Source of the DNA: Roseibacillus sp.
GTDB taxonomy: Bacteria > Verrucomicrobiota > Verrucomicrobiia > Verrucomicrobiales > Akkermansiaceae
NCBI GenBank assembly: GCA_002686085.1
Contig: NZAC01000007.1
Location: 16,755-59,702 of the forward strand
Length of the DNA: 42,948 nucleotides
Direction: 5' to 3'
This document shows positions 1 through 22,702 of this stretch, one piece after another. Numbering within the stretch: the stretch's first letter is position 1; every line of letters begins with the position of its first letter. The notes under the pieces are model-generated. The model made no database searches, was not told where the DNA came from, and saw only the letters and a program-made list of their open reading frames with translations. A program made the translations under genes and the position numbers.

Positions 1-1106
1 GCAACGCAGGCCAAGATAACGAGGGTTGCGAGGAATCCTTCAGTAAGCATCGATCCGTAGCCCACGAACTGGGCGTCGGATTCGGATTTTACCTGCTTGG
101 AGGATGTTCCTGACGAGACGAGGCAGTGGAACCCAGAGATGGCTCCGCAGGCGATGGTGATGAAGAGGAAGGGGAAGATCCAGGGAGCTCCTTCAGGAGC
201 TGCCCGGAAGGCCGGGGCCACGATCTCAAGACTCTGGCGATCGCCTCCCGGGGTGATGGGCGCCCCTCCGATGAGGCCGGCCACCACAAGACCAATCACG
301 ATGAGCCCGAGAGCGGAGATGAGCTGAAGAGAGTTGATGAAGTCGCGAGGCTGAAGAAGGGTCCAGACTGGCAGGACGGACGCAATGTAGGAGTAAAGGA
401 GAAGAATTGCGACCCACGCTATGGTCGGAATTCCGTCGATGACTCCGGGTTCGCCTCCTAGCAGTTCATTAAAGGCTCCGAGAACGCCCACGTTTCCGTA
501 GAAAATCGTGAGATACATCAGACCCAGGGTGATGATGGAGGGAATGAGAATGTTGACGCCCCGCCGGTGCAAATACACTCCAATCAGAACGGCGAGTGGA
601 ATCTGGATAAGGCAGGGGGAAATCGACTGCGGATAGAGGTCCCACACGCTGGCAATCACCAGTCCGAAGATGGCCAGCACAATGGTCAGGGAGAGGAAGA
701 GGACCGAGAGGAAGAGGAGCCGGGTGCGTTTGCTGAGGACTCTCCCCGCGATATCTCCCACGGTCTGGCCCCGGTTGCGGATGGAGACTACGAGAGCTCC
801 AAAATCGTGGACCGCGCCGATCAAAATGGATCCAAAGAGAACCCAGAGGAGCGCTGGTAACCAGCCCCAGATGACGGCGAGGGCGGGTCCGACGATTGGC
901 CCGGTTCCTGCAATACTGGTAAAGTGATGGCCAAAGATGACGCCCTTACGAGTAGGAACGTAGTCGTTACCATCCTCCATTTCTACAGAAGGAACTCGAG
1001 CTTCCGGGTTTAGTTTGAAGATCTTCCGAGCCAGAAATTTCCCGTAGGTATGATAGGCGATAAGGTAAAAGACGAGAGCGCCCAGAGCGATGGCAAGAGT
1101 CTGCAT
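1..1106 (-). CDS. cstA: Carbon starvation protein CstA, C-terminus cut by window edge
   Basis: Inner-membrane transporter of the CstA family; characterised members import pyruvate or peptides. The reading frame starts at the ATG complementary to 1104-1106 and stays open to base 1, so only about 368 N-terminal residues are present (family members are roughly 480-700). Family hallmarks are visible: DYVPTRKGVIFGHHF near residue 50, then AGTGPIVGPALAV, HDFGAL, and ACGAISGFHCLVSSGTSSK near residue 325, followed by GYGSMLTEGFLA. Many hydrophobic segments alternate with short loops. It lies 51 bases downstream of coaD on the same strand and may be the last gene of the mfd-PPIase-coaD run, though its function is unrelated. 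The family assignment is firm; the substrate is not readable from the sequence. Confidence 0.93.
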   Translation of the reverse strand, partial: MQTLAIALGALVFYLIAYHTYGKFLARKIFKLNPEARVPSVEMEDGNDYVPTRKGVIFGHHFTSIAGTGPIVGPALAVIWGWLPALLWVLFGSILIGAVHDFGALVVSIRNRGQTVGDIAGRVLSKRTRLLFLSVLFLSLTIVLAIFGLVIASVWDLYPQSISPCLIQIPLAVLIGVYLHRRGVNILIPSIITLGLMYLTIFYGNVGVLGAFNELLGGEPGVIDGIPTIAWVAILLLYSYIASVLPVWTLLQPRDFINSLQLISALGLIVIGLVVAGLIGGAPITPGGDRQSLEIVAPAFRAAPEGAPWIFPFLFITIACGAISGFHCLVSSGTSSKQVKSESDAQFVGYGSMLTEGFLATLVILACV

Positions 1107-9668: not shown

Positions 9669-10011
9669 GGACTGATAGGAGGTTTCAAGGGTTTAGCCCG
9701 GTCACGCGATTGAAGCAAGAACAGGTCAGGAAGCCTTTCGTTTTCTCTCCTTAATGAGCGTAGGGGAATGTCATGTCTTCTTGCAAGATCATGCAGTTTC
9801 TCGAGGGCGCGGCCGCCCATGGGATTGAAGGAATCTCATTTCTGGATGCTTGACCATTTCTTGAAGGAATAACCCACGAGGGGGAGCGGGAGAGTGATTC
9901 TCTTCAGAACCGATCCTGATGTAATGGTGGGTATTGGCTGTGCAGCTCCTATCGTTCTGGTGTATCCTCGCTGAACTACGGAGGTTTATCCTCCTTGTCC
10001 TAAAGCCCCCG
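9669..10011. other. Intergenic region between divergent genes
   Basis: 343 bases between the M48 protease (minus) and the giant CotH protein (plus), which must carry both promoters. I see no convincing -35/-10 pair. A short hairpin, GGAGG-TTTAT-CCTCC (9980-9994), sits 17 bases before the chosen ATG at 10012. An in-frame TTG at 9934 could extend the giant protein by 26 residues, but the ATG at 10012 gives a proper signal peptide. Confidence 0.4.
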
Positions 10012-13000
10012 ATGGAAACCCTCAGCCTTCGACGAGTCTTGTTTGGTCAGCCTATTGCGTTGGCCATTGGAATTCTGCCTCTGCTGCTCACTATCACTGC
10101 TGCCTCTGCTCCAGTTGCGGTAGATGATCAATATCAGACCGCCGAGGATCTGGTTCTTAACACACAATCAGGGCCGCTCATCTCAACAGATCTTGACAGC
10201 AGTAGTCAGACGATCACTCCGGCGTTTGATGGAGATTGGGACTATCTCGACAAGATGGAGAACCAGCTTGGAGCTGATATGGGCTACCCGGTTGACGGAT
10301 TTGGCAGAGATTGGAACAGTGTGGATTTTGATGTGGGGTCATCCACTGTTGGTCCATGGGGCTCGGGAGTTCTCCCCCTTCAGGGAGGTGTAGTTCAGGC
10401 ATTTCCGGCCGCCACTCCGAATCTTTTGCTTGGGATCGGCGATGGGCCAAATGGTCAGAATTTGGTGACCACCTACCTTTTTAGAAATACCTTCACCTTG
10501 AACGCAGAGGAGGTGAGTGAGCAAAAGTGGATTGCCAATCTCGCGGTTGACGATGGATGCGTGATTTTTATCAATGGAGTTGAGGCTGGCTCGCTTTTTA
10601 TGCCGGATGGGGTCATCGATTCGAATACTCTGGCAGAGAACAGTGATGAGTCGTCCTACTTTTCTGTTGAGCTCGACGTTGCCGGTGTGCTGAGAGAAGG
10701 GCAGAACACGATTGCAGTCGAAGTCCACCAAGCCAATCTTGGAAGCTCTGATATAGGCCTCGACCTAACGCTCGAGGGGGGCGTGGGGGCTTCTGGAGGT
10801 TTTGTGTTCTCTGATGATGTGTTCGGCACAAATCAACCGGATTACGCGGCCGGTAGTCTTGATCCTGATGGAGGGTTCGCTGGTTCGGGGCTTCGGATCA
10901 CAATCGGAGGCCTCGATAATCGATTTGTCCCAGGGCCCCATGCCACCTCGGGAGCTTTCACCCGAAGCTTCTCGATTTCGTCTTCTGCAGCTGTTCGAGT
11001 GGATTTCAGATACAGGCTGGTAAACTCCGATCCGCTCGAGGCAAGTGAGTTCGGCGAGGCGGTCTTTGAGGTTGATGGGGTGCGCTATGGTAGCGATGAG
11101 AATAATTCGTTGGTTCGAATCAGTAATGGCGGAGATTCCGGTTGGAGGTCTGCAAGTTTTACGCTGTCGCTGGAAGCTGGTAGTCATACAATTGCGCTTG
11201 GTGCTTACAGTGGTGGAACGAGCCGGGGCAATGAGGTTATTAACGTGTATTTTGATGACGTCCTTGTTCAGCAGGGAGATGGAGCGATTGGTGGCGTCCT
11301 GAGTAACGATTCGGTCGGTAGTGAACCTGTAGTGTCGGTTATCAGTCCTCCTGTAAATGGGGACGTCAACATGGATCCAAGTGGGGTGTTCCTCTATACT
11401 CCGGACCCGGATTTCTTCGGCACGGACCGGTTTACATATCAAGTTGCCGATGTTGCCGGGGTTTCCGGAGCGGCCGAAGTGGTTATCGAGGTCATGCCCG
11501 TGAATGATGCCCCGGTCGCAATGCCTGAGACCTTTGCGCTTGATGAGGACGAGGTGCTTGTTGTTGATGTTGCCGCGAATAGCCTTCTCGCGAATGACGA
11601 GGACCTTGAGGGAGATGACCTCTCGGCGATTCTTGTGGATGGGGTTATGCAGGGAACTCTGTCTCTCGATGCGGGTGGTCAGTTCGTCTACACTCCCGAG
11701 GAAAACTTTTTCGGTAACGACTCCTTCACCTACCGGGTAAGCGATGGAGAATTGGAGTCGGAGCCTGTGCGAGTCAGTCTCCTAGTTGCGCCGACACCGG
11801 ACGCGCCGGTTGCAAGAGATGACCTTTTTGAGGTTGGAGAGAATGTTGCCCTCCAGGCGATTGTCGATGGTGGAACAGGAAGTGGCGAGGAGGCGGTGAT
11901 TCCCTACGGAGCAGATTGGCGTTACGATGATACGGGGACTGACCTCGGTGAGGCGTGGCGGGAGCCTGATTTTGATGATTCTCAGTGGGCGAGTGGTCCC
12001 GCCGAACTGGGTTATGGTGATGGTGATGAAAATACGCAGGTAGGGTTTGGGGGTAGCCCCAGAAACCGAAACCCAACCACATACTTCCGGCATACTTTTA
12101 CGATTGAGGCGGTAAATTCAATCGTAGGATCAAGGTGTCGTGTTTTCCGGGATGACGGGATTGTCGTGTATCTAAATGGGACAGAAGTAGGTCGCGATAA
12201 CATTGGTGAGAACCCGTCTTATAACGACTTTGCCAGTAGTGCTGAGGACGACGGGGATCTTGAGATCGAGCTCTCGGCGGTGTCTCCAAGCCTATTTGTT
12301 GAGGGAGAAAATATTCTCGCAGTGGAGATTCACCAGAGCGACAGACAAAGCTCCGATATCAGCTTTAATCTGGAGCTTGAAGTTACCAGAGCCCGGAGGT
12401 CGGGCCTGCTCTCGAATGATCTGGACCTGGATCAGGCGGGGCTCGTTGCGGTTCTCGAAACTGGCCCTGTCAATGGGGTGGTCGATCTCGATGAGACCGG
12501 GGCCTTCACTTATACGCCGCGTCTTAATTTCGAGGGAGAGGATCAATTTACCTATCGAGCTGTTAATCAAGAGGGGGCTTCGATTGGAGTTGTCACTATC
12601 AATGTGATGCCGGGAGCGAATGATATCCCTGAGTCGGAACCAGACGTCTATCAGGTGGCAGAAGATGTGGAATACCTTCGTAACCCTGAGCAGGGCGTGT
12701 TGTCCAACGATGTAGATCCCGATGGGGACTTAATTCAGGCAACGCTTGTGGAAACAACGGCTCATGGAGAGCTCGTGTTCAACGAAGACGGTTCGTTCTC
12801 TTATACTCCTAACCGTGATTATTTCGGTCCCGACTCTTTCACTTATACCGTATCTGACGGCATCTCCATATCACCGGTAGAGGTAGTTATGCTGAATGTC
12901 AGCAACGTGCCTGATTCTCCTATGGCCATCGAGGACACCTACGCCACAGATCCCGGTGGATCCATCATAGTAGATGCCCAAGATGGGGTTCTTGCTAACG

Positions 13001-16000
13001 ACTATGATCCGGATCAGTCAGCCCTTGAAGCTGTGCTGGTTAATGGAGTTACGAGTGGGGAGCTGGTTCTTAACCCGAATGGTGCGTTCTTCTACCGCCC
13101 GGCCGATCAGAACCCGGGTCTTGTGTCCTTTGCTTATCGAGCCAGTGATGGAGCTCTTTCATCCCCGGTAACGACGGTGAGAATTTATTTGGACCAAGCT
13201 CCTGCAGGAGTTGCCGATGAATATGTTGTCTCTGAGGATGAGACGCTCGAGATTACTGGCGACGAAGGGGTATTGGCCAATGATAGTGATGCGGAGGGGG
13301 ATTCTTTGGCCGCGGTTCTGCTTTCTCCTGCTGCGCATGGAGTATTGGATCTTCGTTCTGATGGATCGTTTACCTACACGCCGGAAGAGAATTTTGACGG
13401 GCCAGATTCGTTCCGCTATGTCGCTGCGGGCGGTGCGCGCTCTTCAGAGCCGGTTTTGGTTCGGATTGGCGTCTCAGAGGTGAATGATCCTCCTCTGGCC
13501 AGTGAGGATTACTATCTGGCAATTGCTGATCAGGAGCTCGTAATTGGGCCTGAGAGTGGAGTCCTTCTTAATGATATCGATGTGGATAGTCTCTCGCTGA
13601 GTGTATCGGTGACGAGGGCGCCTGCTCATGGGCAGTTGATAATGAATGAGGACGGATCGTTTTCCTATATGCCCTCGCCAGGATTTTCCGGAAGCGATAG
13701 CTTTACCTACAGGGTCAGTGATGGGGCTCTGTATTCCGGTTCGGAGACGGTCAATATTCAGGTGGGTGGAGCCTCGGATGCGATCGTGATCAATGAGATC
13801 ATGTATCACCCAGACAGCGGGGCCACCGGACATGAATTTATTGAGTTGCTCAATATTGGTGACGGACCGGTGAGCGTTGAAGGATGGGAATTCACCAGTG
13901 GGATCGGAATGGTTCTTCCAGACCTTGTTATTCCGGCTGGGGGGTTGCTAGTAGTGGCAGCAGATATCGAGGAATTTGTCGCCGTTTATGGAGCGGTAGA
14001 CCTCCTTGTTGGAGGTTGGAGTGGCTCTCTGAGTAATCGGGGTGAACGTATCCGCCTTGTTGATGATAAAGGGGAGCAAGTCGATGAAGTAGGATATCAT
14101 GACCAGGGAGATTGGGCGGAAAGAACGAGAGTGACTGATACCGGAGAGCTGGGTTGGGTATGGGAGGCAAGGCATGATGGTGAGGGAGAGTCTCTCGAGC
14201 TCATTTATCCATATCTCACCAATCAGTCCGGGCAAAATTGGAGCGCAAGCGATGGTGGGGCAACCCCCGGTGAGGTGAACTCGAATGCTCTCGGTGAAAG
14301 CGAGATTGCGCCTTTTATTCTGGATGTTGGTCACAGTCCTCTGGTTCCAAGCTCGACAGATCCTGTGACGATTCGTGCCCGGCTGAATGACAGCACATCT
14401 CAAGGTCTTTCCGTGACTGTATTCTTCAGGGTGTCTACGCTGGATCCCGGGGATTTCACGGAAGTGGTCATGTCAGACGATGGTCTGCATAATGATGGAT
14501 CCGCTGGCGACGGAGTCTATGGTGTTACCCTGCCCGCCATGGCTGATCGGGAGATTGTTGAGTTCTACCTGTCAGCAAGCGATGGAGCAAATGTCAGGAC
14601 GTGGCCTGCTCCGACCGACATAGGGCAGGTGGCGAACCTCCACTATCAGGTCGACGATGCGCCCAATCCGCCGGGAGAGGGGGTTTACCGCTTAATTATG
14701 ACCGCTTCGGAAAACCGTGCGTTTAACCGAATAGATCGCGATTCGAATGCTCAGCACAACTGCACTCTGGTAGCAGATGACTGCAGTGGTCCGGTTGTAA
14801 GGTATCTTTGCGGAGTTCGGGTTCGAGGGGCGAGTAGCAGACGAGATACCCCTCCGCCGATGCGACTGAGTCTTCCCAGAGATCGGAAGTGGAATGGAGA
14901 AAGCCAGCTCAACCTGAATACACAGTTTACGTGGCTTCAGTTCATCGGCATGAAGTTATTTCAGGTCAGCGACCTTCCCGCGCCGGATAGTAAACGAGTT
15001 GCCATCCGGAGGAACGGGCAGGATCTCGCGCAGGATACGGAAGAAGATTATGGGAGCTTCGTACATCTGCAGCCTCTGAACTCTGAGTTTATAGATGATA
15101 AGTTGTCGGATGATGCGCAAGGTAACCTCTACAAGAAGGTGCGCCCAGATGTGAACTGGGCCTATCGGGGTGGGGACCTCACGCGGTATTCTCGAGACGG
15201 GTGGGGCAAGCAGACCAACGAATCGGAAAACGACTGGACGGACCTCGATGAGTTCCTCCGGATCATGAATCAGGCAGACTCGGATCCAGACTATCTTGAT
15301 CAAGTTGAGGCGGTCGCGAATCTGGATCAGTGGATGCGCTGGTTCGCTGTTGAGACTCTCATCGCCAATGGGGAGACAAATGCGAGTAACGGCACGGACG
15401 ATGATTACAGCATGTATCGGGGGCGTCTCGATCCAAGGTTTCAGTTTATTCCCCACGATCTAGACACAATACTTGGACGAGGTGATGACTCACGGATCAC
15501 GGATCCCGAGCACACCTTGTTCGATATGGTGCGATCGGGAGAATCTCTGGGCCCCTTGGTGCCGCTTTTTGAAGAGCCTTCAATCAGGATTCGCTACTTC
15601 GAGGCCCTTCGCAACTTGATAGAAACCAGTTTTTCCAAAGAAAGATTTGACGCCCTGTTAATCAATCATCTTTCGGGATGGGTGCCGTCGGGAGTCATCG
15701 AGGATATGATTGATTTCATGGATTCCCGTCGTGCCTTTGTGCGACGGGTAGTCGATGGAGAGCTTGGAGGGGCGCCACCCCGACTTGCTCCTGCAACCTT
15801 AACCACGGAAGAGTCTCCCCGCGGTGCGTTGTATCTTAGTGAGCTACTCGTGCTTAACGAATCATCACATGAGGTTGCGGGAAGATATCCGGATTATATT
15901 GAGCTGGCAAATTCCGGGGTAAGGCGCTCCCTCACAGGCTACTCTCTTACCGATGACCCGGCGGATCCGCGGAAGTTTGTCTTTGCGCCAGGTATAGAGA

Positions 16001-17820
16001 TTGATTCAGGTGAACGATTGGTGCTCTACGCGGATTCAAGAGATGGCCCAGGTGTTCGGCTGGGGTTTTCTCTTAGCGCGGCGGGTGAGCAGGTTCTATT
16101 TTACGATCCCACGGGTGTGCTCATTGATTCCGTAACCTTTGGAGCGCAGATACCAGATCTCTCGATCGGTCGGGGTGGAGCCTCGGAAAGCAGCTGGAGC
16201 CTGAATATGCCAACACCTTCGGCAGTCAATCAGGTGCACTCCCTCGGGCTTCCCTCGGGTCTTCGGATTAATGAGTGGTTGAGCAAGCCGGAGTTGGTCT
16301 ACAGCGAAGATTTTGTAGAGCTTTATAATCCAGACCCTCTCCCGGTCTCGCTTGGGGGTCTTCGAATTACGAATGAACCAATGAGTGCTACTCATGGGGC
16401 AGTAATGCCAGCTTTGACGTTCATCAAAGGTGGTGGATTTGTGGTGCTGAAAGCGGTAGGGGCGGGGGCTGAGGGGCCGTCCGAATTGCCTTTCAAGCTT
16501 GAGGCGGGGCATGAATGGCTGGCCATTTATGGAGTTAATGATGTCGAAATTGATCGGGTCCATGCGAGTTGTGATGCGCCCGATCAGTCTCGGGGTCGTG
16601 AGGCTGACGGTGCCGCTCTCTTTGGTAATTTTGACCTGCCGACTCCTGGTCTCTCTAACACCTTGGATCTTACCAGAGAGAATTTGATCCTTCAGTCCCT
16701 GAGAATTACCGAGATTATGTATCATCCGGCAGAGTTTCCTGATTCAGAGTATATTGAGTTACGAAATGTGGGAGATATGGAAATAAGTCTTGCTGGAGTT
16801 GAATTCACAAGAGGTGTCCGATTCAGTTTTCCGGATGTTGTCCTCGGTCCGGGGGCCTACGCGGTGGTTGTATCCGATATAAACGAATTTGAGGCTGCAT
16901 ACGGTGATGGTGTCAATGTTCTGGGAGAGTGGTCTGGGCGGCTCGATAACGACAATGATCGGTTGAGGTTGGAGATTTCTGAGCTCAACGCAGCAGTGCA
17001 TGATTTCACCTATCGTGACTCGTGGTATCCCTCTACCGATGGGGACGGGTATTCTCTGGTGATCGTCGATGAGTCCCTGCGCGCGGAGACATGGAAGGAG
17101 TCAGGTAGTTGGGCTGCAGGAGTGGCAGGTGGCGGATCGCCCGGGATAAGTAGTGGTTTCTTTGTCTTTGGAGGGGCGAATCAGGAGGTTGACCTTCCTG
17201 CGGCAGCAACGCTCGATGCGACGGTGAGCTATGGGTCATTGAGTCGGGATGCGGTGACGCTCAGGTGGAGTCAGCAGGAAGGGCCTGCCCCGGCAACGTT
17301 TGGAAATAGAGATAACGAAGATACAGTTGTATCTGCTGCTGTTGCAGGGCGGTATACCTTTGTTCTAGAAGCTACCTCTGTGGATGGTGCCTCTGAGGCA
17401 GGGGTCGTGTCTGTTATATTCCGAGATTCTTATGGGGCATGGGCCGAGCGTCTGTTTGGAGACGCTGGACAGCTGGCCGCGCAGAGCGAAGCAGACCCGG
17501 ACGCGGATGGGTTGAGCAATCTTGCAGAGTTTGGCCTGGGACTCGATCCTGGTGTTTGGGACAGAGGCGCTCTCGAATCTCCTTTTTTGACTCCGACTGG
17601 AGAGCTTGCTCTGGTTTATTTTCGCCCTTATCTCTCCGCAGCGACTCGAGTAGTTCCAGAGGTCTCCTCGGATCTGCTTTTTTGGGAAGCAGGGCCTGAG
17701 TCGGTCTCGGAATCTGTAATCTGGACCGACGCTGAGGGGGAATGGGTCCAGGCTGAGGACCTTTACCCTTACGATGGGGTCACTCCCCGGTTTATTCGGC
17801 TCCGCGTTGAGGCGAATTAA
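10012..17820 (+). CDS. Giant secreted multidomain protein: cadherin-like repeats, lamin-tail domains, CotH kinase-like domain
   Basis: A 2602-residue exported protein. The ATG at 10012 gives a signal peptide ending near ASA-PVA (residue 37). Approximate order: seven cadherin-like (tandem-95 type) repeats over residues 38-1253, marked by GVLxND, GSFxYTP and DSFTYRVSDG; jelly-roll modules inserted in repeat 1 (65-423) and repeat 3 (629-793); lamin-tail domain (1256-1424, VINEIMYHP); Fn3-like domain (1430-1540); CotH kinase-like domain (1555-1920) with YKKVRPDVNW, NGTDDDYSMYRG and HDLDTILG (His1815, Asp1816, Asp1818); three more lamin-tail domains (1935-2075, 2080-2215, 2225-2380); PKD-like domain (2385-2470); a Ca-binding-like DPDADGLSNLAEFG segment; and a beta-rich tail. 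No sortase or PEP-CTERM anchor is visible. CotH domains phosphorylate proteins in Bacillus spores; the activity and target here are unknown. It is likely a surface or secreted adhesion or matrix protein. Confidence 0.9.
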   Translation: METLSLRRVLFGQPIALAIGILPLLLTITAASAPVAVDDQYQTAEDLVLNTQSGPLISTDLDSSSQTITPAFDGDWDYLDKMENQLGADMGYPVDGFGRDWNSVDFDVGSSTVGPWGSGVLPLQGGVVQAFPAATPNLLLGIGDGPNGQNLVTTYLFRNTFTLNAEEVSEQKWIANLAVDDGCVIFINGVEAGSLFMPDGVIDSNTLAENSDESSYFSVELDVAGVLREGQNTIAVEVHQANLGSSDIGLDLTLEGGVGASGGFVFSDDVFGTNQPDYAAGSLDPDGGFAGSGLRITIGGLDNRFVPGPHATSGAFTRSFSISSSAAVRVDFRYRLVNSDPLEASEFGEAVFEVDGVRYGSDENNSLVRISNGGDSGWRSASFTLSLEAGSHTIALGAYSGGTSRGNEVINVYFDDVLVQQGDGAIGGVLSNDSVGSEPVVSVISPPVNGDVNMDPSGVFLYTPDPDFFGTDRFTYQVADVAGVSGAAEVVIEVMPVNDAPVAMPETFALDEDEVLVVDVAANSLLANDEDLEGDDLSAILVDGVMQGTLSLDAGGQFVYTPEENFFGNDSFTYRVSDGELESEPVRVSLLVAPTPDAPVARDDLFEVGENVALQAIVDGGTGSGEEAVIPYGADWRYDDTGTDLGEAWREPDFDDSQWASGPAELGYGDGDENTQVGFGGSPRNRNPTTYFRHTFTIEAVNSIVGSRCRVFRDDGIVVYLNGTEVGRDNIGENPSYNDFASSAEDDGDLEIELSAVSPSLFVEGENILAVEIHQSDRQSSDISFNLELEVTRARRSGLLSNDLDLDQAGLVAVLETGPVNGVVDLDETGAFTYTPRLNFEGEDQFTYRAVNQEGASIGVVTINVMPGANDIPESEPDVYQVAEDVEYLRNPEQGVLSNDVDPDGDLIQATLVETTAHGELVFNEDGSFSYTPNRDYFGPDSFTYTVSDGISISPVEVVMLNVSNVPDSPMAIEDTYATDPGGSIIVDAQDGVLANDYDPDQSALEAVLVNGVTSGELVLNPNGAFFYRPADQNPGLVSFAYRASDGALSSPVTTVRIYLDQAPAGVADEYVVSEDETLEITGDEGVLANDSDAEGDSLAAVLLSPAAHGVLDLRSDGSFTYTPEENFDGPDSFRYVAAGGARSSEPVLVRIGVSEVNDPPLASEDYYLAIADQELVIGPESGVLLNDIDVDSLSLSVSVTRAPAHGQLIMNEDGSFSYMPSPGFSGSDSFTYRVSDGALYSGSETVNIQVGGASDAIVINEIMYHPDSGATGHEFIELLNIGDGPVSVEGWEFTSGIGMVLPDLVIPAGGLLVVAADIEEFVAVYGAVDLLVGGWSGSLSNRGERIRLVDDKGEQVDEVGYHDQGDWAERTRVTDTGELGWVWEARHDGEGESLELIYPYLTNQSGQNWSASDGGATPGEVNSNALGESEIAPFILDVGHSPLVPSSTDPVTIRARLNDSTSQGLSVTVFFRVSTLDPGDFTEVVMSDDGLHNDGSAGDGVYGVTLPAMADREIVEFYLSASDGANVRTWPAPTDIGQVANLHYQVDDAPNPPGEGVYRLIMTASENRAFNRIDRDSNAQHNCTLVADDCSGPVVRYLCGVRVRGASSRRDTPPPMRLSLPRDRKWNGESQLNLNTQFTWLQFIGMKLFQVSDLPAPDSKRVAIRRNGQDLAQDTEEDYGSFVHLQPLNSEFIDDKLSDDAQGNLYKKVRPDVNWAYRGGDLTRYSRDGWGKQTNESENDWTDLDEFLRIMNQADSDPDYLDQVEAVANLDQWMRWFAVETLIANGETNASNGTDDDYSMYRGRLDPRFQFIPHDLDTILGRGDDSRITDPEHTLFDMVRSGESLGPLVPLFEEPSIRIRYFEALRNLIETSFSKERFDALLINHLSGWVPSGVIEDMIDFMDSRRAFVRRVVDGELGGAPPRLAPATLTTEESPRGALYLSELLVLNESSHEVAGRYPDYIELANSGVRRSLTGYSLTDDPADPRKFVFAPGIEIDSGERLVLYADSRDGPGVRLGFSLSAAGEQVLFYDPTGVLIDSVTFGAQIPDLSIGRGGASESSWSLNMPTPSAVNQVHSLGLPSGLRINEWLSKPELVYSEDFVELYNPDPLPVSLGGLRITNEPMSATHGAVMPALTFIKGGGFVVLKAVGAGAEGPSELPFKLEAGHEWLAIYGVNDVEIDRVHASCDAPDQSRGREADGAALFGNFDLPTPGLSNTLDLTRENLILQSLRITEIMYHPAEFPDSEYIELRNVGDMEISLAGVEFTRGVRFSFPDVVLGPGAYAVVVSDINEFEAAYGDGVNVLGEWSGRLDNDNDRLRLEISELNAAVHDFTYRDSWYPSTDGDGYSLVIVDESLRAETWKESGSWAAGVAGGGSPGISSGFFVFGGANQEVDLPAAATLDATVSYGSLSRDAVTLRWSQQEGPAPATFGNRDNEDTVVSAAVAGRYTFVLEATSVDGASEAGVVSVIFRDSYGAWAERLFGDAGQLAAQSEADPDADGLSNLAEFGLGLDPGVWDRGALESPFLTPTGELALVYFRPYLSAATRVVPEVSSDLLFWEAGPESVSESVIWTDAEGEWVQAEDLYPYDGVTPRFIRLRVEAN

Positions 17821-21346: not shown

Positions 21347-22702
21347 ATGTCCCGAAATCGTAAAAAGTCAGCTCGCCTGCCGCTCGATTATCGAGGGGTA
21401 ATTTTTGGATTTGGTCTTTTGGCTGTGGGAGTATTCGGGCTTCTTGTCCTGCTTACGCCACTGGGTGGGAAGGTGAAGAACGGTCTTAGAGAAATCGTGA
21501 GGCAAAGGTCAGCTGCGGTTGAAAAAAGCAACGGAGAGAAGGCGTTGATGAAGAGAGGACCGGAAGAGTCGCTCTCCCCGCTCGAGTCGGATCCCGATCC
21601 AAAGTTTCCCCGTGGAACTCTTCGGCCTCTCTCCGGCACGAATATCAGGAGTCTTTCTAAGGGGATTAATTTGAAAGTTGTGTTCGATGCAGAAGAGGGG
21701 GAGCTGGCATCTATGGAACGAGATGACGGGGACTCCTATCTTGCCGAGTATTCCCTGAAAGTGCGTATGCCTCGCCCGGCGACGTCACTGTCAGACGTAG
21801 TACTGACAAGTCCCCACCTCATGGAGCTCTTTCCGGGGTTGAGGGACATGATTCCACAAGGAAAAGTCTCGGCTTGGTATCGCCAATTGTATGCGAATAA
21901 ATCTGCCAGAATCAAAAGTGACATAGGTCGATTGAGTGAGATCCTCAGCAGGCATAACTTTTACGATTGCGAAACGATTTTGAACCTGCGCTCGGAGGCA
22001 ACCGGGCAGCGACTCTTCATGATGCAGGCTGAGATGGATGTCGTTTCTGATGGGTCGGATGGGGATAGGCTGCCGCAGATGCCAGATGCGATTGTAAACT
22101 CAACAAACTACCAGCCATTCACCAGTTACCGATGGAGGAAAACAGGATCCACGCCTAATCCCATGATTGCAGGGTGGGAGGCTAGGATCGGCAATGCCAA
22201 AAAGGAGCTGGAGGATCCCTCGGTGGGAAAGGATCGCGCTGCTTGGCTAAGGAGCAGGATGAAGATGCTGGAGGCAGGTGTCGCGGATATGAAATTCGCG
22301 AGCTTTCTCATTGCTGAGTATGACCCATTCATTGTTATTCCAACGAATATAGTGAAAGATCGACGGGACCCCTACGCTCCGAACATTGGAGATTTTGCGG
22401 TCGTTGTTCATGGACGAGTGGCCTACCCGGCTATCGTCGGGGATGCGGGGCCCACCTACAAGGTTGGAGAGGCGTCCTTGCGGATGGCTCGTGAGATCAA
22501 CGCTAATGCAACCCCATACAGTCGCCCGGTATCAGACCTAACCGTTACTTATCTTGTGTTTCCCCGGAGTGCAGATGACCCGAAGAGTGCTCCTGACTAC
22601 GGGCGTTGGCGTGCACGTTGTGAAGAGCTTATTAATCGGGTCGGAGGCCTGGGGGAAGGCGTTGAGCTGCATCAGTGGAGAGATCTACTCCGGTTAGAGT
22701 GA
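21347..22702 (+). CDS. Membrane-anchored protein with GH75 chitosanase-like C-terminal domain
   Basis: A 451-residue protein. A basic N-terminus is followed by a single membrane segment at residues 18-38, placing the rest outside the cytoplasm. Residues about 40-315 are not recognised. The C-terminal part (about 320-430) matches the glycoside hydrolase family 75 (fungal-type chitosanase) layout: EYDPFIVIP, GDFAVVVHGRVAYPAIVGDAGP, YKVGEASLRMA, VTYLVFP. The likely catalytic acids are Asp366 and Glu375 within the GDxGP and GEAS motifs. Characterised members cut chitosan; here the substrate could be another aminosugar polymer, including peptidoglycan glycan (inference). It starts 12 bases after the SDR gene. 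The GH75 assignment is by motif recognition, without alignment. Confidence 0.75.
   Translation: MSRNRKKSARLPLDYRGVIFGFGLLAVGVFGLLVLLTPLGGKVKNGLREIVRQRSAAVEKSNGEKALMKRGPEESLSPLESDPDPKFPRGTLRPLSGTNIRSLSKGINLKVVFDAEEGELASMERDDGDSYLAEYSLKVRMPRPATSLSDVVLTSPHLMELFPGLRDMIPQGKVSAWYRQLYANKSARIKSDIGRLSEILSRHNFYDCETILNLRSEATGQRLFMMQAEMDVVSDGSDGDRLPQMPDAIVNSTNYQPFTSYRWRKTGSTPNPMIAGWEARIGNAKKELEDPSVGKDRAAWLRSRMKMLEAGVADMKFASFLIAEYDPFIVIPTNIVKDRRDPYAPNIGDFAVVVHGRVAYPAIVGDAGPTYKVGEASLRMAREINANATPYSRPVSDLTVTYLVFPRSADDPKSAPDYGRWRARCEELINRVGGLGEGVELHQWRDLLRLE

Follow-up and report, generated by a model that had tools for sequence, protein, structure and literature searches.

The window, by which we mean the whole 42,948-nucleotide stretch of Roseibacillus sp. 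DNA analysed here, raises the question of whether two repeats of one long protein are built around other domains, so that their first strands lie far upstream of the rest of their fold. The open reading frame that contains both repeats occupies positions 9934-17820 (+; 2628 aa) and likely starts at Met 27, at position 10012. Seven tandem repeats are found in it both by the Pfam model Big_9 (7 stretches; whole-protein E 1.4e-106) and by the NCBIfam model tandem-95 (7 stretches; E 1.5e-113), in each case above the curated cut-off. Pfam also matches Cadherin_4 and Cadherin_5, four stretches of lamin tail domain (LTD), one CotH kinase domain (residues 1628-1907, 76 bits vs a cut-off of 23.8) and one PKD domain. 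Repeats 2 and 4-7 are continuous, as had been noticed in a sequence-only reading of this DNA, and have matches to the Big_9 profile. The same profile covers repeat 1 (R1) only from its position 9 and repeat 3 (R3) only from position 22. The opening strands are APVAVDDQY at 10108 (R1) and DAPVARDDLFE at 11800 (R3), and the turn segments follow at a distance, GVLSND at 11290 and GLLSND at 12400. Judging from the probable signal peptide, the mature protein would begin with split repeat 1. The features, with the evidence for each, are as follows.

10012-10107 (+): probable Sec-type signal peptide (residues 27-58), read by eye; relatives open similarly
10108-10167 (+): repeat 1, opening strand(s) APVAVDDQYQTAEDLVLNTQ; rejoin test, AlphaFold2 strands E12-17 and E22-25
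10168-10203 (+): SGPLISTDLDSS, most likely the first strand of module M2, lying ahead of JR1; MAM/CBM-type structural alignments, continuous M2 in L096 and L086
10204-10785 (+): JR1, GH2-N-like jelly-roll, most likely inserted into M2; structure model and sequence comparison
10792-11271 (+): rest of M2, a jelly-roll resembling MAM/CBM16/CBM61; nothing convincing in Pfam
11281-11502 (+): repeat 1 remainder, from GGVLSND; Big_9 E 7.2e-12, 8fxr_P3 aligned over model residues 7..471
11503-11799 (+): repeat 2, continuous; profile matches, AlphaFold2 model
11800-11874 (+): repeat 3, opening strand(s) DAPVARDDLFEVGENVALQAIVDGG; rejoin test, AlphaFold2 strands E107-112 and E117-119
11875-12390 (+): JR3, GH2-N-like jelly-roll inserted into repeat 3; GH2 beta-glucuronidase N-terminal domain at Z 13.8, 3w5m at E 1.2e-7 (phmmer)
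12391-12618 (+): repeat 3 remainder, from GLLSND; 8fxr_P3 at Z 12.5, 86 residues aligned over model residues 102..372
12619-13773 (+): repeats 4-7, continuous; Big_9 and profile matches
13774-14100 (+): first lamin tail domain (LTD); Pfam
14815-15654 (+): CotH kinase domain; Pfam E 4.8e-21
17173-17418 (+): PKD domain (K319L-like); Pfam E 3.2e-9

The sequence-only reading had taken R1 and R3 to be split by long modules, and the rejoining of strand and remainder agrees. Scored against an independent repeat profile made of continuous repeats only, from five named loci, the R1 remainder alone gave 57.7 bits, and 73.8 bits with its opening strand rejoined; for R3 the score rose from 70.4 to 82.3 bits. 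The joined scores were reached by none of 1000 random upstream pieces, which here and in every other rejoin test, relatives included, were drawn only from the C-terminal half of the window protein, and by none of 500 strand shuffles for each repeat. The residues that truly precede the turn, i.e. the end of the inserted module, add only 0.2 (R1) and 1.2 bits (R3). Among relatives, the R1 test was passed in 22 of 22 rows of alignment A1, with gains of 6.9-17.3 bits and 0/1000 random pieces reaching the joined score, and all 32 R3-type slots, from 31 proteins, beat all 1000 random pieces. The bounds of 25 of these slots were set automatically and those of 7 by hand: two (L065, L089) had failed automatically because of a wrong upstream piece, and five had stayed unscored because the turn motif was too narrow. 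R1 and R3 are split repeats, and their opening strands belong to the repeat that follows the insert. A recent insertion was considered and rejected, since the R3 query (strand, JR and remainder) finds matches over 276-277 of its 277 residues in 13 of the 14 other genomes of the genus, the exception (G012) having two weaker matches only, and since other families carry the split R3 too.

We modelled residues 524-990 (R2-R4) and 54-622 (R1-R2) with AlphaFold2, using 35 and 37 sequences, respectively. Mean pLDDT was 93.2 for the R2-R4 model and 86.9 for the R1-R2 model, in which confidence is low for the opening region of R1 (blocks of 10 residues at 70 and 61); pTM was 0.49 and 0.65, and the models therefore do not predict domain orientation. 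The elements of R3 (two short strands, the insert, the LLSN turn and five strands) come in the same order as in the continuous R2 of that model. VIA-align placed both split repeats on a continuous Ig-like stretch of 88 residues (69..156) of the collar sheath protein of phage Milano (8fxr_P3): 86 residues at 1.6 A for R3 and 84 residues at 1.8 A (Z 11.5) for R1. Both alignments start in the opening strand and finish in the remainder. As R3 has about 75 residues in range behind its insert, at least about 11 aligned residues must precede the insert. The alignments span both inserts, which favours nesting over separate folds, and the flanking strands thus form one predicted fold in each repeat; the outcome that would have refuted the sequence-only reading, flanking strands without a common fold, did not appear. 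Foldseek matches of the R2-R4 model included fucoidan hydrolases and cadherins among other multi-domain chains, but no TM-score exceeded 0.28, which is too low to settle anything. That R1 and R3 are instead plain tandem domains whose ends have degenerated, with the opening strands as remnants or linkers and the later repeats complete alone, is very improbable: the remainders do score well by themselves and Big_9 does align R1 from position 9, including residues of the preceding module, but the opening strand brings its gain in every R1 row and every R3-type slot, and the structural alignment crosses the insert in both repeats.

The two inserts lie at the same point, which had suggested a tolerated loop. 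Our comparisons support a single permissive slot used in both R1 and R3, which follows the opening strand pair and precedes the xLxND turn (repeat-profile positions of about 22-25). Its cargo varies among relatives, and the slot is therefore a plug-in site. We counted 34 proteins of this family, leaving out L094 as an apparent duplicate of L071 with the same domain positions. The R1 slot holds JR1 and M2 in 33 of them and M2 alone in one (L086). In the genus, as in several relatives, the R3 slot is filled by JR only; in others JR is preceded by a further module, M3 (about 190 aa), which was read in L089, L091 and L093 as DSWDGN...DESWAIDN or similar and, judging by how the inserts open and by their lengths (362-365), probably occurs in L063, L064 and L066 as well. 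In L086 there is a second carrier of the R3 type, and here too a single plain repeat separates the carriers; L077 has the R1 carrier and lacks the R3 carrier, and the sequences of L062 and L090 stop before R3. The named loci that show the R1 arrangement carry the labels Verrucomicrobiales, Akkermansiaceae, Akkermansia muciniphila and, once, Planctomycetota, which makes a host within the Verrucomicrobiota most likely for the window. The Planctomycetota locus (L091, QEVJ01000005.1), a MAG, combines the R1 arrangement (41% identity) with an R3 carrier, and reflects either inter-phylum transfer or a misbinned contig. The species name of L094 (CALQKQ020000014.1), filed as Akkermansia muciniphila, looks doubtful.

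There is a second protein family, with open frames of 937 (L021), 1092 (L023), 1161 (L025) and 786 aa (L026, the front part of which lies in another frame). In its first repeat, 202 (L023) and 211 (L021) residues separate the last two strands, and the rejoined score was reached by 0/1000 random pieces in both. Its second repeat carries JR in the usual slot (0/1000 in L021, 2/1000 in L023). A candidate final strand of this second repeat, beyond further JR modules, found no support, as random pieces reached its score in 564/1000 (L021) and 328/1000 cases (L023).

The R1 and R3 inserts were thought to share one jelly-roll domain, and this holds: JR1 and JR3 are 32% identical in an alignment of 28 JR domains. 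JR has the fold of the N-terminal sugar-binding domains of GH2 (Z up to 13.8, for JR3 against a beta-glucuronidase). The likeness to this sugar-binding domain is one of fold with a weak sequence match, Glyco_hydro_2_N (PF02837) giving 22.9 bits on the protein and 18.3 bits on JR3, below the gathering cut-off of 28; the window protein has no GH2 catalytic domain among its Pfam matches, unlike GH2 enzymes. No Pfam family matches more than 4 of the 28 JR members at E 0.01 (best E 5.5e-5), and an NCBIfam rhamnosidase model matches 14 of the 28 weakly (JR3 20 bits vs a cut-off of 1720). The best PDB sequence match, at E 2.5e-4 with the JR profile, is the putative rhamnosidase 3w5m, whose residues 253-351 resemble JR and cover 108 of the 176 residues of the JR3 query; its enzyme part is absent from the window protein. 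The R3 query (repeat plus JR) was matched in 98 of 142 relatives and in 121 of 387 genomes drawn from the phylum, and the best 80 loci include some from several other phyla, where JR mostly stands without an adjoining tandem-95 repeat. In the window's own genome (G000), 46 first-look candidates were found for the R3 query and all 17 that were scored matched, which gives at least 17 matches; on sequence matching, this genome is rich in JR domains or repeats. M2 has the fold of MAM, CBM16 and CBM61 (Z 11.2-13.2, R1 model) and, unlike these, is most likely split by JR1. Searches with 13 M2 rows found no MAM, CBM16 or CBM61 match in Pfam at E 0.1 (best E for any family, 0.021), and the best E against PDB sequences was 0.87. 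M2 is rare, occurring in 31 of 142 relatives and 2 of 387 genomes of the phylum draw. There are thus two module families, JR (widespread) and M2 (rare), that existing Pfam models match weakly or not at all.

A second beta module at 10800-11280 had been described in R1. It exists, as M2 (10792-11271), but JR1 is most likely inserted into it, with the first M2 strand ahead of the jelly-roll, near 10168-10203, a layer that the sequence-only reading had missed. Among the 50 alignments listed for the R1 model, 18 are to MAM, CBM16, CBM61 or similar chains (two of them MAM-Ig) that bypass JR1; all 18 start at model residue 22-27, before JR1, and end at 394 or later. By these alignments the first strand of M2 is LISTDLD (window residues 82-88), with JR1 in the loop behind it. 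Continuous M2 is consistent with this. In a Rhodospirillaceae MAG (L096) it reads LIEADFNSDLDGFTYSDDAFGT (in a longer stretch, TLIEADFNSDLDGFTYSDDAFGT), and in L086, where M2 fills the R1 slot without JR1, LPLVSASFNGGNSGEFVYADDTFGT; the window has the first half of this motif before JR1, as LISTDLDSS, and GGFVFSDDVFGT behind it. A rejoined-M2 profile gained 8.0 and 6.9 bits from the openings of the L096 and L086 M2, joined scores that were reached by 1 and 3 of 1000 random pieces and by 9 and 5 of 1000 shuffles, for the two sequences that represent continuous M2. Searches for further continuous M2 in viral contigs and plasmids (L096 query) and in phages (L086 query) found none. In alignment A1 all 22 R1 rows have the M2 strand motif before JR1 in a loose form (18 of 22 in the strict form), and so do, in the strict form, 6 of 6 cassettes within DUF7933 repeats (see below), vs 0/165 strict and 9/165 loose before other JR domains. 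Where JR1 is absent (L086, L096) the motif directly adjoins M2.

Of the other alignments listed for the R1 model, 8 are GH2 chains on JR1 alone and 22 are GH2 chains running from 32-40 to 391-395 at rmsd 3.8-5.4. The latter read JR1 and M2 as consecutive domains, and are compatible with modules standing side by side in the R1 slot as well, i.e. with single nesting, LISTDLD being a linker or a part of JR1. Such an arrangement has a precedent in the R3 slot of relatives, where M3 and JR are adjacent, and would suit the low model confidence at the LISTDLD strand. We nevertheless consider it improbable, given that the motif stands before JR1 and is nearly absent before other JR domains, that it moves up to M2 where JR1 is missing, and that the strand is included in all 18 MAM/CBM alignments. 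Model and sequence comparison together point to repeat 1 most likely holding M2, itself split by JR1: a domain in a domain in a domain.

The search for other proteins with a nested arrangement, which had been suggested along with the sequence-only reading, returned, in addition to the 34 proteins of the family above, M2[JR1] in a second setting. In 6 of 6 proteins of 1646-1796 aa each (L079:3695-8728, on contig C49 of the window's own genome, L083, L084, L085, L088 and L092), it sits in the third repeat of DUF7933, another Ig-like repeat. Profile positions 2-45 of this carrier lie before the cassette and 64-114 behind it, with an insert of 380-385 residues, and the joined score was reached by 0/1000 random replacements of either half in all six. 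The part behind the insert came out clean (from profile position 46-58) in 4 of 6 proteins and ran into M2 (from 13-14) in 2 of 6 when bounds were not set by the motif; with motif-set bounds it was clean in 6 of 6. In a tree of 32 cassettes the six from DUF7933 and four from cadherin-like repeats (L063, L064, L089, L090) meet at an open fork (89/88), which lies in a starred group of 12 (96/94). In the best tree the DUF7933 cassettes are divided between two starred groups, three in each; they form a single group in 28% of 200 bootstraps. The tree, with its midpoint root, suits a move of the cassette from cadherin-like repeats to DUF7933 without proving one. We give an even chance to a broader proposal, by which M2[JR1] would be a ready-made nested cassette, moved whole from the cadherin-like slot into an unrelated DUF7933 loop, and Verrucomicrobiota surface proteins would gain specificity by plugging cassettes into standard repeat slots. 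If so, three levels of domain nesting would arise stepwise.

Taken together, these results make it probable that the window protein is secreted and that its N-terminal repeats form a stalk, in which R1 and R3 are split carriers of jelly-rolls, M2 holds JR1 within R1, and the modules face sideways and recognise glycans. The seven repeats would make up an Ig/cadherin-like stalk. In R1 and R3 the chain is predicted to exit after the opening strand pair, to fold the jelly-roll module or modules, and to re-enter at the xLxND turn; in R1 this would happen twice over, the slot holding M2 and the loop after the first M2 strand holding JR1, as the model and relatives suggest. A plugged-in module starts and ends at the same loop and would hence jut out to the side of the stalk, leaving its far face free, as in the split domains of RTX adhesins, and a plain repeat would separate successive carriers.

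For split domains, PMC12077191 refers to Graham et al. 2024. The same split-domain design is already known from RTX adhesins, where one N-terminal strand is followed by a sugar-binding domain and then by the bulk of the fold, so that the binder is projected outward (PMC10865825, PMC12077191). The UKD of FrhA from Vibrio cholerae is an Ig-like domain split into 12 aa, a sugar-binding insert and 106 aa (PMC10865825). AhLap of Aeromonas hydrophila is described as having extender domains between carriers and an insert in an insert, made of beta-roll, vWFA and insertion sequence (PMC12077191). FrhA, AhLap and MpIBP share with the window protein an Ig-like N-terminal strand parted from its bulk by an inserted domain. 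In contrast to RTX adhesins, however, here an LTD-CotH protein uses its N-terminal tandem-95/Big_9 repeats as carriers, and the inserts are JR, M2 and M3, with M2[JR1] also found in DUF7933 repeats. The RTX motif GGxGxD has 0 matches in the window protein and no RTX family is among its Pfam matches; by these signatures the protein is not an RTX adhesin.

The likely job of the modules would be the recognition of glycans on particles, cells or polymers, because they have the folds of carbohydrate-binding domains; the analogy with RTX adhesins also suggests a putative role in ligand binding. A shared fold alone, however, shows no function. The plugged-in modules could instead be structural spacers or dimerisation modules that bind no ligand, which we regard as less likely than not. 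The weakness of the family matches given above would fit spacers. Against them stand the varied modules found in one slot, which may reflect selection for specificity, the module folds themselves, and the fact that RTX adhesins carry glycan binders by the same design (PMC10865825, PMC12077191).

Searches of the open-licence literature found nothing on Verrucomicrobiota with CotH kinase and lamin tail domain, with a split domain, or with CotH kinase and cadherin, and nothing for queries on nested or inserted domains. Within the literature searched, what seems new is the split-domain design in Verrucomicrobiota LTD-CotH proteins with tandem-95 carriers, the M2[JR1] unit, whose layers are also documented one by one, and the presence of this unit in DUF7933 as well. 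This suggests an equivalent of the RTX-type split-domain design, with varying cargo, in the giant proteins of a different phylum. A unit that nests a domain in a domain in a domain, and whose layers occur on their own too, offers a natural series for how nested domains arise and fold. An opening strand far from its xLxND turn provides a sequence rule by which candidate binding modules could be sought in unannotated giant proteins.

Two observations concern the surroundings of the repeats. A 225-aa open frame on the minus strand (10765-11442), antisense to M2, is most likely a shadow of the coding strand. The ten neighbouring proteins scanned, which gave no hint of a joint function, include a penicillin-binding protein, a short-chain dehydrogenase, a GH75-type chitosanase, an amidase, an NAD-dependent DNA ligase and 2-oxoglutarate dehydrogenase; the GH75 chitosanase-like protein lies downstream, at 21347-22702 of the window (E 4e-11).
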